From Sphingomonadales bacterium (GTDB taxonomy: Bacteria > Pseudomonadota > Alphaproteobacteria > Sphingomonadales > Sphingomonadaceae), in NCBI GenBank assembly GCA_013297725.1, contig JAAFIB010000003.1:1-64000 (forward strand): 64,000 nt of DNA, read 5' to 3'. Below the pieces are notes generated by a model. It saw nothing but the letters and a program-made list of their open reading frames with translations, was not told the DNA's origin and made no database searches. Made by a program: the position numbers and the translations under genes. Below are positions 55,625-62,675 of the stretch, one piece after another. The first letter of the stretch is position 1, and each line of letters starts with the position of its first letter.

Positions 55625-55664
55625 AAGAAGTCGTAGCGGCTAAGCTAAGCGGCCACGACTTCTT
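55625..55664. terminator. inverted repeat between tadC and FAH genes
   Basis: Perfect 10-base arms AAGAAGTCGT (55625-55634) and ACGACTTCTT (55655-55664) flank a GC-containing 20-base middle. The plus-strand arm lies 11 bases after the tadC stop; the other arm is within the 3' end of the convergent FAH coding region. A shared bidirectional terminator is likely. No strong T-run is present. Confidence 0.55.
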
Positions 55665-56652
55665 GTTCAATAACGCCAAAAATAGGGTGATGACGCTCAT
55701 CCTCCATCCAGATGCGCACGCTATCGCCGGGTTTCATGAACGGCGTTTCTGCTTTCCCGCTTTGGATTGTCTCGATGGTCCGCACTTCGGCAAGGCAGCT
55801 GTAGCCCACGCCGCCTTCGCTAATTGGTGTACCGGGGCCGCCATCTGAACCACGATTGGAAACGGTACCGGAACCAATAATGGTTCCTGCCCCCAAGTGA
55901 CGGGTCTTTGCAGCATGAGCGATAAGCTGGCCAAAATCGAAGGTCATATCGACACCTGCATCCGCCCGCCCAAGCGGCGCGCCATTAAGGTCAACGCACA
56001 ATGCGCCGGACAGCTTGCCATTGCTCCAGCGATCACCAAGCGCTTCTGGCGTGACGAATACTGGTGAAAAGGCACTGGCAGGTTTTGATTGAAAAAAGCC
56101 AAAGCCCTTGGCCAATTCATCGGGAATAAGACCGCGCAACGACACGTCGTTGGTCAGGCCAACCAGCAGGATGTAATCCTTTGCAGCTTCGGCGCTAATC
56201 CCCATAGCGACGTCGCCGGTTACAACAACAACCTCGGCCTCCATGTCACAGCCCCATGCAACATCGCCCAAGGGGATTGGATCGCGTGGCCCCAGAAACC
56301 CGTCTGAGCCGCCCTGATACATCAACGGATCGTGCCAGAAACTTTCCGGCATCTCTGCATTCCGTGCCTGTCGTACCAGCGCAACATGGTTCACATAGGC
56401 CGACCCATCCGCCCATTGAAAAGCGCGCGGCAAAGGCGATGCAGCATCATGTTCATGAAAACGCTCACGCGGAATCACATTGTGTTCAAGATCAGTCGCC
56501 AATGCCTCCAACTTCGGCGATATGCGCTGCCAATCATCAAGCGCGCTTTGCAATGTTGGCGCGATATGATCGGCGTCAGCATACCAGGCCAGATCATTCG
56601 ATACGACAACCAGCTTTCCGTCACGACCGTGTTTCAGCGATGCGAGTTTCAT
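55645..56652 (-). CDS. fahA: fumarylacetoacetate hydrolase family protein
   Basis: Probably fumarylacetoacetase, the last step of tyrosine/homogentisate breakdown, giving fumarate and acetoacetate. The 335 residues have an N-terminal SH3-like part (MKLASLKHGRDGKLVVVSNDL) and the FAH fold with the metal-binding GCDMEAEVVVVTGDV, GLTNDVSLRGL and GAGTIIGSGTVSN. The C-terminus contains PGDSVRIWMEDE. GAAAGGATTTAC precedes the ATG. HPPD and maleylacetoacetate isomerase lie nearby, which supports this role over other FAH-fold hydrolases. A plus-strand peptidase gene sits between it and the rest of the cluster. Confidence 0.85.
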   Translation of the reverse strand: MKLASLKHGRDGKLVVVSNDLAWYADADHIAPTLQSALDDWQRISPKLEALATDLEHNVIPRERFHEHDAASPLPRAFQWADGSAYVNHVALVRQARNAEMPESFWHDPLMYQGGSDGFLGPRDPIPLGDVAWGCDMEAEVVVVTGDVAMGISAEAAKDYILLVGLTNDVSLRGLIPDELAKGFGFFQSKPASAFSPVFVTPEALGDRWSNGKLSGALCVDLNGAPLGRADAGVDMTFDFGQLIAHAAKTRHLGAGTIIGSGTVSNRGSDGGPGTPISEGGVGYSCLAEVRTIETIQSGKAETPFMKPGDSVRIWMEDERHHPIFGVIEQEVVAA

Positions 56653-56741: not shown

Positions 56742-57665
56742 ATGCGGAAAACCAGCGTTATTTCGGCCGCTTCGATGCTGCTGTTCCTTGCCACTGCGTC
56801 ATCGGCACAAGTGAACGAATCGATGGCGATAAACGGCTGGTCGATGGAACAGAATCGCACGCCCGCATGGCATTTGGCGCAGCATGAGAAGCTGACCACT
56901 GCGCTCGCCAAAATTGCTCCGCAACGCAAAGGCGTCGTTGATGCTTATGTCGTTGTGATCGGGCTCGATTCCGATCCAGTATTTAAAAAGGAAACGGCAG
57001 AGGTTCTAAACGTGCTGCAACGCCGTTTCGGTGCCACCACGCGTTCTTTGCGTCTCGCCGCTGGATCAAGCATAGAAGCAGGCGATGCACCGCAAGGGTC
57101 GCCTTCAAATCTTGCGATTGCGCTCGCCTCAATTGCGAAAAAGATGGATCTGAAAGAGGACGTTCTTGTCTTTTATTCGACCTCACACGGAGACAAAAAG
57201 CTCGGCTTAGTTTACCGGGATGGTGAAAATGGCTTTGGCATGATTGCACCGAAACGACTAAAATCGCTGCTTGACGAGCTTGATTTCAAACGTCGTATCT
57301 TGCTTCTGTCGGCCTGTTACTCCGGCGTATTTGTGCCCGAGCTGGCCGATGATCACAGCGTGATTGTGACCGCTGCATCATCCAGTCGACCATCCTTTGG
57401 TTGCACACCGGGGAATGATTGGACGTTTTTCGGCGATGCTTTGGTGAACAATGCGATGCGCAAATCGCAACCGATGGCCAAAGCGACCGACGAAGCCACC
57501 GGTCTGATCAGCATTTGGGAATCCAAATTAGGTTTGCAAGCATCGAACCCGCAAGTGTCCATCGGTGAAGACACTGCAAAGTGGCTAACCGCGCTAGAGG
57601 CACAAATGCCGACAACCGAAACCGCCAAAGTCGGGAGGCCTGCGATAGAGACGTCGTTCGATTAA
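56742..57665 (+). CDS. exported C13 (legumain/caspase-like) cysteine peptidase
   Basis: A 307-residue product with a signal peptide (cut near SSA-QV, about residue 22). The clan-CD dyad appears as His149 in FYSTSHGDK and Cys192 in LLLSACYSGVF, each after a hydrophobic strand as in legumains; the 43-residue spacing fits. The flanks also fit: VVIGLDSDPVFKKETAEVLNVLQRRFGA upstream, then VIVTAASSSRPSFGC and WTFFGDALVNNAM. Bacterial C13 members are largely uncharacterised. It lies outside the cytoplasm by prediction and is divergent from fahA with an 89-base spacer. AGGAGA precedes the ATG. Substrate and any link to tyrosine catabolism are unknown. Confidence 0.82.
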   Translation: MRKTSVISAASMLLFLATASSAQVNESMAINGWSMEQNRTPAWHLAQHEKLTTALAKIAPQRKGVVDAYVVVIGLDSDPVFKKETAEVLNVLQRRFGATTRSLRLAAGSSIEAGDAPQGSPSNLAIALASIAKKMDLKEDVLVFYSTSHGDKKLGLVYRDGENGFGMIAPKRLKSLLDELDFKRRILLLSACYSGVFVPELADDHSVIVTAASSSRPSFGCTPGNDWTFFGDALVNNAMRKSQPMAKATDEATGLISIWESKLGLQASNPQVSIGEDTAKWLTALEAQMPTTETAKVGRPAIETSFD

Positions 57666-57669
57666 CAGA

Positions 57670-58224
57670 CTACTCAGACGCTGCCAGCGGATCGTTGTGC
57701 AGCCATTCGGCATGACGCGGCGCTGTTTTGGTCTTGGACCAATCATCCAGCATTAGCGGTGCAACGCGCTTTAACTCCGCATATTGCTCGTCCGTTCCAA
57801 TGTCGCAGGCGAGTTCCAGCCGGTGGCCATTGGGATCAAAGAAATAAATTGACCTGAAAATGCCGTGAAACGTCGGCCCGATTACATCCACGCCTTGCGC
57901 CTCGATATGCTCTTTTGCCGCCTTTAACATGTCAAAGTCTGCAACCTTAAATGCCAGATGCTGCACCCAGGCTGGCGTCTTTTCATCGCGGCCCATTTCT
58001 GGCTGATTGGGAAGTTCAAAAAAAGCCAGCACATTGCCGCCGCCGCATTCTAGAAAGATGTGCATATAGGGATCATATTCGCCGGTTGACGGCACATGAT
58101 CCTCTGCAAATGCTGTGGTGTAAGTGAACCCGAGCACCCGGTCATACCACTCAACGGTCGCCTTGGCATCTTTGCAGCGATAAGCGACGTGGTGGATGCG
58201 GTCTGTTTTAAAGGGGACAGTCAT
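57670..58224 (-). CDS. VOC-family (glyoxalase/bleomycin-resistance) protein
   Basis: A 184-residue vicinal-oxygen-chelate protein. Candidate metal ligands are His in [11 protein letters not shown], His in VQHLAFKV and Glu in [22 protein letters not shown] is the typical family segment. The exact reaction is unknown. Its ATG overlaps the hpd stop, so it is made with HPPD, and a role in aromatic ring or keto-acid handling is plausible. It is too short to be the homogentisate dioxygenase, which has a cupin fold. Confidence 0.8.
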
Positions 58225-59315
58225 TCGGCAACCTCCAATACGCCGCGTTCAATTTGATCGCGTTCGATGCTTTCAAACAGCGCCTTAAAATTGCCCTCGC
58301 CAAAGCCTTCGTCGCCGCGGCGCTGGATAAATTCAAAAAACACAGGCCCGATTTCGGGCTGGGCAAAGATTTGCAGCAGCAACCGCGGCTTACCGCCATC
58401 GGTTGTGCCATCAAGCAAAATGCCGCGCGCTTTTAATTCTTCGGTTGGCTCGCCATGGCCGGGCAAGCGTTCCTGCAGCATGGTATAATAGGTCTCGGGC
58501 GGCGAGGTCATGAAGTTGACACCGCGACTTTTCAAATTGTCGTAGCAGCCAAGCAAATCGTCACAAATTAGCGCGATGTGCTGAATGCCTTCGCCGTTGT
58601 AGGCTCGCAGATACTCCTCAATCTGTCCGCCCCCTGCTTTTCCCTCTTCATTCAATGGGATGCGGATTTTGCCATCGGGCGCGGTCATCGCTTTCGATGT
58701 CAGCCCGGTATACTCGCCCTTAATGTCGAAAAAGCGGATTTCGCGGAAGTTGAAGATCCGTTCGTACCACCCTGCCCAATGCGCCATGCGGCCGCCGTAA
58801 ACATTATGCGTCAGATGGTCGATTTTCTGGAAACCGGCCCCGACCGGAAAATGTTCAGCGCCGGGCAGATATTCGAAATCAATGTCATAGATCGATAGCG
58901 CATCGGGATTATCAAGCGTTGCATAGCGGTCCACCAGATAGATAAATGCACCGCCAATGCCTTTGATCGCCGGGATGCGTAGTTCCATAACACCGGTTTT
59001 GCTCTCAACGGGTTCTGCCCCGCGCTTGATCGCCTCATCATAAGCCTTGGCGGCGTCTTTGACGCGGAACGCCATGCCGCACGCCGATGCACCATGTTCT
59101 TGCGCGAAATAAGCAGCGGGGCTGCGTGGTTCGTAGTTGGCGATCAGGTTAATCTCGCCCTGCCGCCACAAATGCACGTCTTTTGACCGGTGCTGCGCCA
59201 CTTTGGTGAAGCCCATGCAGGTGAATACAGGTTCCAATACGCCTTTTTCCGGAGCGGTGAATTCGACAAATTCAAAGCCATCAAGGCCTAGCGGGTTATC
59301 GAACAGATCGGTCAT
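58221..59315 (-). CDS. hpd: 4-hydroxyphenylpyruvate dioxygenase
   Basis: Converts 4-hydroxyphenylpyruvate to homogentisate with Fe(II) and O2. The 364 residues form two VOC modules. The three iron ligands lie in [24 protein letters not shown] and the Glu of [29 protein letters not shown]. The C-terminal gate helix is present. The ATG follows CTTTGGAG and is preceded by a hairpin and a palindrome-containing promoter region. The next gene (VOC) is coupled to it. It is expected to be controlled by the adjacent MarR-type regulator. Confidence 0.95.
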
Positions 59316-59865: not shown

Positions 59866-62046
59866 CTAATCAAATTTATAGCTAAGGCCAAGCCAAAGGG
59901 TGCGCGGATTGGCACGCTCTATTATGCCAGCAGAGGATATCGCCGCCTCGACCCGCACATCAAAGAGGTTCTCGCCTCGCAGTTCCACACCCAAACCATT
60001 GTCAAAACGGTATCGCAACATGCTGTCCGCCGTCACCGCGTCTTTCAGGCGGCGGCTATTTGCGTCATCTTCAAACTGGCTGCCAATATAGCGCAGCGTA
60101 AAGGCAAATTTCCATTTCTTGTCAAAATCATCAAAGTTCACACCGATGTTCGCAAAATGCTTTGGCACTTGCGCAGGACGAAGCCCGTTAAACGGCGCGG
60201 CACGCCCGCTAGCCTGCACCTTGCTGTCGACATAGGCATAGCCAAGATTGAAATATAGCTCAGGCGTCACCGGATAGAATGCGTCAAACTCCAGACCCTT
60301 GCTGACAATCGCATCCAGATTTTGCCGTTGGCGATATGCTCCCCCCGCCGCCACAAAGCCAACGCCTGGGAAGACGCCTGCCCCCTGCCCCAGGGTGACA
60401 TTCGCAATGGCATTATCCAGCCGGTTATAAAAGAACGTCAGATTTGCTCTTCGTTCGCCTGCATCGTTATAGGCAAAGCTAGCCTCCGCACCCTTGATCC
60501 GTTCGGGCGAGAGCAGTTCATTGGCAGCAGTAGCATCGGCGCCAACACGGAACGGCCGGTAAAGTTCGTTCAACGTCGGCAGACGCCAGCCAAGATAGCC
60601 AGACCCGCGCAGTGTCAACGCATCGGTTAACTCCCAGCCCAGCCCGACCCGAGCAGTCCCCTCTGTATCAGCGCGATTGGCGAAACGATCATCTGAGCGC
60701 ACGGTCCCGCCGATATTCACCTCGCGCCGGAAACCGTTATTGATCTGCCAGCGGTCAACACGCCCGCCGCCGCTAAGTGTTAGGCCATCTGCTGGCTCAA
60801 CGCTGCCCTCAAGAAACACTCCGTAGCTGTCGGTTTTCCCACCAGCGGTGCGAAACCGCGTTGGCAAGCCGCTTACAAAAGTGAAGTTCTCCCGCGTCTC
60901 GCCAATCGTCCGCCGCCATTCGCCACCAAGCCGTAATTCGGCGTTGTCGCCAACTGGAGGGCGGATTTCAAAGCGCAGGCCTAGACCGGTCGAGGGAGTG
61001 GCAAACTGATCAAGTGTCGGCGTAACGCTTGAACGATCCGCCGATACTGCGCCAAATTGTGAGGAGAATTCGCGTATCTGCAGATATCCAGTCGCTGACC
61101 ACTGCCAATCGCCTTTGCGCTTTACCACTCGCAGGCTAGCGTCGACGCCGCTATTCCGGTTGTCGGAAAAGGCAACGCCCCGCTCTCGCTTGTCGACAAA
61201 GCCCCGCAAATTGGCCTGTAACTCGGTATAGGCTGAAAGCGGGGCGACCCCGCGCAATGCCAGCCCTGCTTGCTCATAAGGAGCCGCGCGATCCACCAAT
61301 CCGCGCTGGCTTTCAACGATCGGAAGGAAACCATCGCCGCGCGCATAGCTTGCAGAGGCAGAGATACTGCCGCCGCCAATCCTGTCATTGTAGCGCCCTC
61401 GGGCCTCAACGCTATTCCTGCTGCCATAAGCGGCAGCTAAATCAGTGGCCGAGAGGTTCTGTACGCTATCCAGTTCAATCACGCCGGCCAGTGCGCCCGG
61501 CCCGGCACTGGGCTGACCACCGCCTTTGCGAATGCGAATGCTGGTAAGGTTCAGCGCATCATAACCGGGCCAGCTGACCCAGCCACCAAAGGGATCAGCC
61601 TGCGGCACATCGTCGAGGAACAGTAGCGCCCGCGATGAGGCATTGCCGCCTAAACCTCGCAAGGTAACGCCTTGACTGGTCGGATTGGCACTACGCGCAT
61701 CGGACCGGCGGAATTGTTGCAAACCGGGAACAGTTAGCAGTGCATTTTCCAGCCGTTCACTTGCTCCCACCGGCAGTCGCGCCCAAAGGGTGGCCTCGGT
61801 GACATCGCTTTTCGCATCTGGCAACCGGCCGGTTACAACAATGATATCGTCGGCAGAGATCGAGGTAATGCTAATTGGTCCATCATAAACTGATGGCTGA
61901 GGCCTAGTCCCGCGAAGTGACTGATCCCGTTCATATTGGTCCACCTCCTCCTGACAGACAGCATCGCATTCTTGGGCATAAGCGGGCGTCAAGGAACATA
62001 TGGATAGGGCCGCCAGCGATAATGTTAGCGTAGCGGGTTTCCTCAT
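59866..62046 (-). CDS. TonB-dependent outer-membrane receptor
   Basis: A 726-residue ligand-gated porin. The signal peptide is cut near AYA-QE (residue 24), followed by two cysteines (27 and 31) and a Gln-rich linker, the TonB box IIVVTGR (68-74), then the plug with RLENALLTVPGLQQFRRSDARS and VTLRGLGGNASSRALLFLDDVPQADPFGGW. The barrel ends in LGLSYKFD with a near-terminal aromatic. Cargo is unknown. It is ATGA-coupled to maiA and followed by the MarR gene and hpd. In sphingomonads some TonB receptors import aromatic compounds, so a tyrosine- or lignin-type aromatic is possible. No Fur- or Zur-like site was seen before it. Confidence 0.92.
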   Translation of the reverse strand: MRKPATLTLSLAALSICSLTPAYAQECDAVCQEEVDQYERDQSLRGTRPQPSVYDGPISITSISADDIIVVTGRLPDAKSDVTEATLWARLPVGASERLENALLTVPGLQQFRRSDARSANPTSQGVTLRGLGGNASSRALLFLDDVPQADPFGGWVSWPGYDALNLTSIRIRKGGGQPSAGPGALAGVIELDSVQNLSATDLAAAYGSRNSVEARGRYNDRIGGGSISASASYARGDGFLPIVESQRGLVDRAAPYEQAGLALRGVAPLSAYTELQANLRGFVDKRERGVAFSDNRNSGVDASLRVVKRKGDWQWSATGYLQIREFSSQFGAVSADRSSVTPTLDQFATPSTGLGLRFEIRPPVGDNAELRLGGEWRRTIGETRENFTFVSGLPTRFRTAGGKTDSYGVFLEGSVEPADGLTLSGGGRVDRWQINNGFRREVNIGGTVRSDDRFANRADTEGTARVGLGWELTDALTLRGSGYLGWRLPTLNELYRPFRVGADATAANELLSPERIKGAEASFAYNDAGERRANLTFFYNRLDNAIANVTLGQGAGVFPGVGFVAAGGAYRQRQNLDAIVSKGLEFDAFYPVTPELYFNLGYAYVDSKVQASGRAAPFNGLRPAQVPKHFANIGVNFDDFDKKWKFAFTLRYIGSQFEDDANSRRLKDAVTADSMLRYRFDNGLGVELRGENLFDVRVEAAISSAGIIERANPRTLWLGLSYKFD

Positions 62047-62675
62047 TCCGGCTTCACCGCATCAGGCGCAGCTTTCGCAAACGCTTCTATCCCCCTCAAC
62101 ACCGCATCAATCCGCACCAGTTTCGGAAATGCCTCCATCGGCGCGTCAAACCGCCGCGCATTGGCCATTTGCGGCACCAGACAAACATCGGCCAAATTGG
62201 GCAGGTCGCTGCCGAACAGGCCGTCTGCCGGGGCCATCGCCTCCAGCGCGGTAAAGCCCTCGATGATCCAATGGCGATACCAGTCGTCGACCGCTGCCTG
62301 ATCCTGCCCCATCGTCCCTTGCAGATATCTCAGCACGCGCAGATTATTGATCGGATGGATGTCGGCGGCGATCAGCAACGCCTGCGCCAGCGTCTTTGCG
62401 CGGATCGCCGGTTCTGGCGAGACCATTTTCGGTTCAGGATATTTCGCGTCCAAATAGTCAATGATCGCAAGGCTTTGTGTGAGATCATGCCCGTCAATTG
62501 ACAGCATCGGGACAAAGCCCTGAGGGTTGCGCGCGACATAAGCCGCCTGTCTATGATCACCATCAAGCAAGCTGGTCGGAACAGCGGTATAGGCCACACC
62601 TTTCAGGTTCAGCGCAATGCGGACACGATAGCTGGCGGAAGACCGCCAATAGTCAAACAGCAATATCTCGTTCAT
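62043..62675 (-). CDS. maiA: maleylacetoacetate isomerase (zeta-class GST)
   Basis: Isomerises maleylacetoacetate to fumarylacetoacetate using glutathione. The zeta-class motif WRSSASYRVRIALNLKG (about residues 10-26) carries the SSxxxR active-site signature. VPMLSIDGHDLTQSLAIIDYLDAKYP forms the thioredoxin-fold end, and the helical domain includes LPNLADVCLVPQMANARRF. The 210 residues are standard. It is the first gene of a same-strand run with the TonB receptor, MarR and hpd. The ribosome site is weak. Confidence 0.93.
   Translation of the reverse strand: MNEILLFDYWRSSASYRVRIALNLKGVAYTAVPTSLLDGDHRQAAYVARNPQGFVPMLSIDGHDLTQSLAIIDYLDAKYPEPKMVSPEPAIRAKTLAQALLIAADIHPINNLRVLRYLQGTMGQDQAAVDDWYRHWIIEGFTALEAMAPADGLFGSDLPNLADVCLVPQMANARRFDAPMEAFPKLVRIDAVLRGIEAFAKAAPDAVKPE

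Follow-up and report, generated by a model that had tools for sequence, protein, structure and literature searches.

The gene at positions 56742..57665 (+) of the window, the 64,000-nucleotide stretch of Sphingomonadales DNA analysed here, is a further genuine and well-conserved member of a known but little-studied bacterial peptidase family, the C13 cysteine peptidases. Our preferred reading, with a rough probability of 0.62, is that its product is a periplasmic clan CD C13 cysteine endopeptidase which cuts envelope or secreted proteins and that the gene is a passenger at the fah locus. To our knowledge, bacterial C13 peptidases are widespread and almost unstudied; a literature search by phrase found no paper on bacterial legumains.

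Identification of the C13 peptidase and its catalytic dyad

The gene is an ORF of 307 aa with an ATG start and an upstream AGGAG motif. Searching 84,980 species genomes yielded 180 relatives; the best 80 were retained, and the ORF is conserved at about 50–64% identity across these 80 other genomes, so that it is not a chance ORF. Its distribution is patchy (detected in 39/301 genomes of the family and in 34/385 of the class), suggesting that the gene is dispensable. Conservation was read from a sphingomonad alignment of 81 sequences, window sequence included, and from a wider set of 53 sequences reaching distant alphaproteobacteria.

The Peptidase_C13 profile (PF01650) matches the window protein with 54 bits (E = 2.2e-14) against a gathering cut-off of 22.8, the alignment running from residue 136 to 244 and from profile position 105 to 215 of 258. 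Every member of the wider set matches PF01650 on its own (53/53), whereas the C14 profile matches only one of them (1/53). Caspase (C14) identity was rejected for the window protein, which has no PF00656 match and scores 30 bits against a cut-off of 140 with the 'caspase, EACC1-associated' model (NF047832); the clan CD fold and the dyad are what it has in common with those proteins and with caspases and metacaspases. Identity as an anti-phage defence protease was likewise rejected, PADLOC giving no match.

The preliminary description had placed the protein in clan CD, family C13, with His149 and Cys192 as the dyad, and both the profile score and the alignments bear this out. The codons for His149 (CAC, 57186..57188, +) and Cys192 (TGT, 57315..57317, +) specify residues that are invariant in 81/81 and 53/53 sequences, and neither set contains a homologue without the dyad. 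His149 lies within YSTSHG and Cys192 within SACYSG, in agreement with the C13 pattern of His-Gly and x-Ala-Cys-x-Ser-Gly. The SFGC motif (residues 218–221; 57393..57404, +), which hhalign against human legumain places in the S1/L5 loop, is invariant in 53/53 sequences. Asp232 (57435..57437, +), aligned by hhalign with the S1 residue Asp231 of legumain, is invariant in the 81 sphingomonad orthologues and present in 40/53 of the wider set. Also kept in all 81 sphingomonad sequences are S218-F219-G220-C221 and N225-D226-W227-T228-F229-F230-G231-D232, while the residues invariant in the 53-sequence set are H149, G150, C192, G195, A211, S218-C221, E260, S268, P270 and G275. Judging from the sequence, the protein is very probably an active cysteine peptidase.

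Predicted fold and comparison with legumain

The AlphaFold2 model generated on the C13 alignment (pLDDT 92.7, pTM 0.89) has His149 just after strand 141–147 and Cys192 just after strand 184–190. These are the clan CD positions: as in the caspase/legumain fold, the dyad residues sit where the third and fourth core strands end. When the model was searched against the PDB with Foldseek, the top 21 matches were legumain/asparaginyl endopeptidase (AEP) chains (best E = 2e-9, TM-scores about 0.4–0.6), followed by GPI transamidase subunit K, caspases and MALT1. Legumain was also the best match in a sequence-profile search of the PDB (E = 9.9e-8). A caspase/legumain-type fold is well supported by the predicted model.

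Legumain (MEROPS C13; human LGMN; PDB 4aw9 and 4n6o) belongs to the same Pfam family and is the best fold match, identity being about 13% when the structures are aligned; it is exported, as the window protein is predicted to be. Alignment by hhalign with the human legumain sequence, which was checked against PDB entries, pairs the dyad as His148/H149 and Cys189/C192 (legumain/window) and the loop residues as Ser216/S218, Cys219/C221 and Asp231/D232. The two proteins differ two residues before the catalytic Cys, where the Glu of legumain is replaced by Ser (Glu187/S190). In addition, the C-terminal activation peptide/LSAM prodomain of legumain is absent from the window protein, which terminates with the last peptidase-domain helix (278–286) and a short tail.

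In legumain, Asn or Asp at P1 is held by a zwitterionic S1 pocket consisting of Arg44, His45, Ser216 and Asp231 (PMC4357240). The Ser and the Asp of this pocket are aligned in the window protein. The hhalign alignment covers residues 118–252 and the Arg44/His45 region lies outside it, so the counterparts of these two residues are an ungapped guess; counting from the first core strand leads to K82, which is variable, and K83, a position occupied by Arg in 36/53 and Lys in 2/53 sequences. Arg44 has no conserved counterpart in the bacterial proteins at the position so obtained. About half of the legumain pocket thus appears to be kept, and the S1 site of the window protein may be legumain-like in part.

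Predicted export and relation to other bacterial C13 proteins

A Sec-type signal peptide is predicted by inspection at residues 1–22 (56742..56807, +), with cleavage at ASSA/Q. The N-terminus, MRKTSVISAASMLLFLATASSA/Q, consists of an RK n-region, a hydrophobic core and an A-x-A-type site followed by Q, and is without a lipobox Cys. The same pattern is seen by inspection in the N-termini of the orthologues, and the signal peptide proposed earlier is supported. A simple signal-peptide script passed 56/81 sequences, most of the failures being wrong start codons or mis-anchored extracted ORFs. In other alphaproteobacteria several C13 homologues carry lipoboxes, and membrane segments precede the C13 domain in one homologue (locus L082) and in a protein of Acinetobacter (all by inspection).

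The latter is an Acinetobacter baumannii C13 protein of the Abrp type, encoded beside fghA (L121, QBF38053.1). It is a homologue of the window protein (30% identity over 85% of the query, E = 8e-31) and retains the dyad and SFGC. In contrast to the window protein with its signal peptide, it is 483 aa long, shows on inspection about five membrane segments in its N-terminal part, and lies in another gene neighbourhood. We infer that this locus is abrp itself. The deletion of abrp is the sole phenotype that our literature search found for a bacterial C13 gene. According to two reviews (PMC10203620; PMC5346588), the deletion raises membrane permeability and slows growth; the reviews conflict on whether antibiotic susceptibility rises or falls. 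A Pseudomonas C13 protein (L122, WIK44125.1) has the same C13 motifs and differs in starting like a lipoprotein and in having MORN repeats ahead of the peptidase domain; this fusion (L122:3047-4786, +) is carried on a 425-kb plasmid. One C13 domain therefore occurs with several bacterial envelope attachments, namely signal peptide, lipoprotein, membrane domain and MORN repeats, which is consistent with an extracytoplasmic position of the catalytic domain.

Proposed mode of action

By analogy with clan chemistry, His149 would activate Cys192, which would attack the peptide bond following a P1 residue seated in a pocket of which Ser218 and Asp232 are part. The enzyme would act in the periplasm on envelope or secreted proteins, in either processing or quality control. 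Predicted export together with the abrp phenotype favours the processing or turnover of envelope proteins, although Abrp, which supplies the precedent, is only distantly related and carries a membrane domain. On the strength of export and this analogy, we put a role in envelope-protein processing at even odds. The clade consists of small soluble C13 proteins free of a prodomain or membrane part and should lend itself readily to expression and assay.

Gene neighbourhood and alternative readings

The C13 gene is divergent from fah (fumarylacetoacetase, 55645..56652, -; PF01557/PF18288) and convergent with a gene for a VOC protein, downstream of hppD (4-hydroxyphenylpyruvate dioxygenase, 58221..59315, -; TIGR01263, E = 1.5e-115). 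It was correctly described before as separating fah from the rest of the cluster (VOC and hppD, 57670–59315, -) on the opposite strand. The further suggestion that this setting is meaningful did not survive comparison with other genomes. Among the best 80 of the 180 relatives, the C13 gene is divergent from fah in 31/80 loci, in the sdh operon in 43/80 and in neither position in 6/80, the typical Sphingomonas order being sdhC-sdhD-sdhA-C13-(ClpP-like)-(CreD)-sdhB-paaI-zapE. The fah linkage is confined to one clade, and most of the other orthologues are in the sdh operon. A maximum-likelihood tree places the window gene in a clade made up of 27 fah-linked rows (100/91). Enclosing this is a clade of 35 (100/100), which consists of every fah-linked row plus three more and is nested in an sdh-linked grade; the direction implied by this tree has a certainty limited by root placement and by sampling, closest relatives having been kept first. 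Close relatives carry the tyrosine cluster without C13: the order tadB-tadC-fah-VOC-hppD is found in genomes G471 (L147) and G490 (L145), and in G474 (L129) hppD-VOC-fah are contiguous while the C13 gene of the same genome is on another contig. For this reason the linkage is best read, as the simplest account, as a single relocation from the sdh-operon setting followed by vertical inheritance. The location between fah and VOC/hppD would then be that of a passenger, and the fah, VOC and hppD neighbours carry little functional signal. As for the sdhA-sdhB gap as the source site, the roughly 7.6 kb lying upstream of sdhB in the window's own genome gave no sdhA match.

The sdh-operon loci give rise to the alternative with the most in its favour, which we nevertheless regard as unlikely: that C13 makes up, with a membrane-anchored ClpP-like serine peptidase and in many cases CreD, a mobile envelope-proteolysis module in the Sphingomonas sdh operon, the window form being a stand-alone offshoot. 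A ClpP-like gene lies directly downstream of C13 in 35/80 loci, abutting it in L061 (5834/5835), CreD is also present in 15 loci, and inspection of the ClpP-like protein shows Ser/His motifs and a hydrophobic segment at its N-terminus. However, a search without a positive control gave no ClpP-like match in the window's own genome, CreD is often absent, and co-location in a conserved operon may reflect only a shared insertion site. Moreover, genome G012 keeps a ClpP-like gene (L183:3228-4013, -) between sdhA and sdhB and has no C13 gene that we could find, so the two genes are separable. The ClpP-like peptidase itself (PF00574, weak; L061:5835-6710, +, and 34 other Sphingomonas loci) forms with the preceding C13 gene an uncharacterised pair.

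It is improbable that the peptidase instead belongs functionally to the tyrosine/homogentisate pathway, perhaps through processing of the cluster's outer-membrane receptor or an enzyme, and was kept beside fah on that account. The divergent fah-C13 arrangement does recur in the 31/80 loci, among them that of Chakrabartia (L040) with its different surrounding genes, and a TonB-dependent receptor is present in the same cluster. The persistence of the pairing may point to a weak selective advantage. However, besides the arrays without C13 and the L129 genome, two of the six loci in neither position (L041 and L045) have the order tadC-C13-VOC-hppD with no adjacent fah, the sdh-linked loci are the more numerous, and fah, above threshold in 72/121 family genomes, is distributed differently from C13 at 39/301. 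A functional tie to tyrosine catabolism was rejected on the C13-less synteny, the tree and this distribution; the C13 gene very likely has no role in tyrosine catabolism, and the neighbouring tyrosine genes are a poor guide to its function.

Family C13 includes both protease and transpeptidase/ligase activities. The window protein might accordingly act in the manner of GPI transamidase and the asparaginyl ligases of plants, coupling the protein that it cleaves to another amine, a reading that we consider more improbable still. The fold matches below E = 1e-5 include plant peptide asparaginyl ligases as well as the GPI transamidase subunit, but the Foldseek ranking cannot tell a ligase from a protease, we identified neither a dedicated acceptor system nor a sorting signal, and hydrolysis is the commoner activity. 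Slimmer again is the chance of its most specific form, a periplasmic GPI-transamidase/asparaginyl-ligase-type transpeptidase that joins envelope proteins or peptides, has a non-legumain P1 pocket (Ser190 for Glu and no conserved Arg44 equivalent) and is partnered in Sphingomonas with the adjacent membrane ClpP-like peptidase. Least probable of all is a pseudoenzyme or decaying gene, with which the patchy distribution would agree, since the dyad and loop motifs stay invariant across about 50–64% identity and what look like internal stops in L029, L031, L079, L115 and L116 are true C-terminal stops that were read through.

A VOC protein beside hppD

The convergent neighbour of the C13 gene (57670..58224, -) encodes a VOC (glyoxalase/extradiol) protein of 184 aa (PF00903, E = 9e-18), which we consider a stronger lead. 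Both hppD and fah are present in the window's genome, but HgmA_C (PF04209), the profile for canonical homogentisate dioxygenase, has no match anywhere in it. Across 121 Sphingomonadaceae genomes, PF04209 is present in 44, the VOC protein in 53 and both in 0, where 19 would be expected (hypergeometric 7e-16, shared ancestry of the genomes being ignored). Among the 72 fah-bearing genomes, HmgA occurs in 24 and the VOC protein in 47, with 1 lacking both, so that exactly one of the two is found in 71/72. The VOC protein may supply the ring-cleavage step that is otherwise missing from the pathway, as a candidate non-orthologous VOC-type homogentisate dioxygenase. Possible metal ligands are seen by inspection near H12, H89 and E138, and the closest solved chain is 9u42 'Glyoxalase' (E = 1.6e-74).

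Two further genes of the window deserve mention. A GST-family gene at 62043-62675 may encode maleylacetoacetate isomerase. The TonB-dependent receptor gene (59866-62046, -) lies inside the tyrosine cluster and adjoins a MarR regulator; it is possibly an uptake route for an aromatic substrate.
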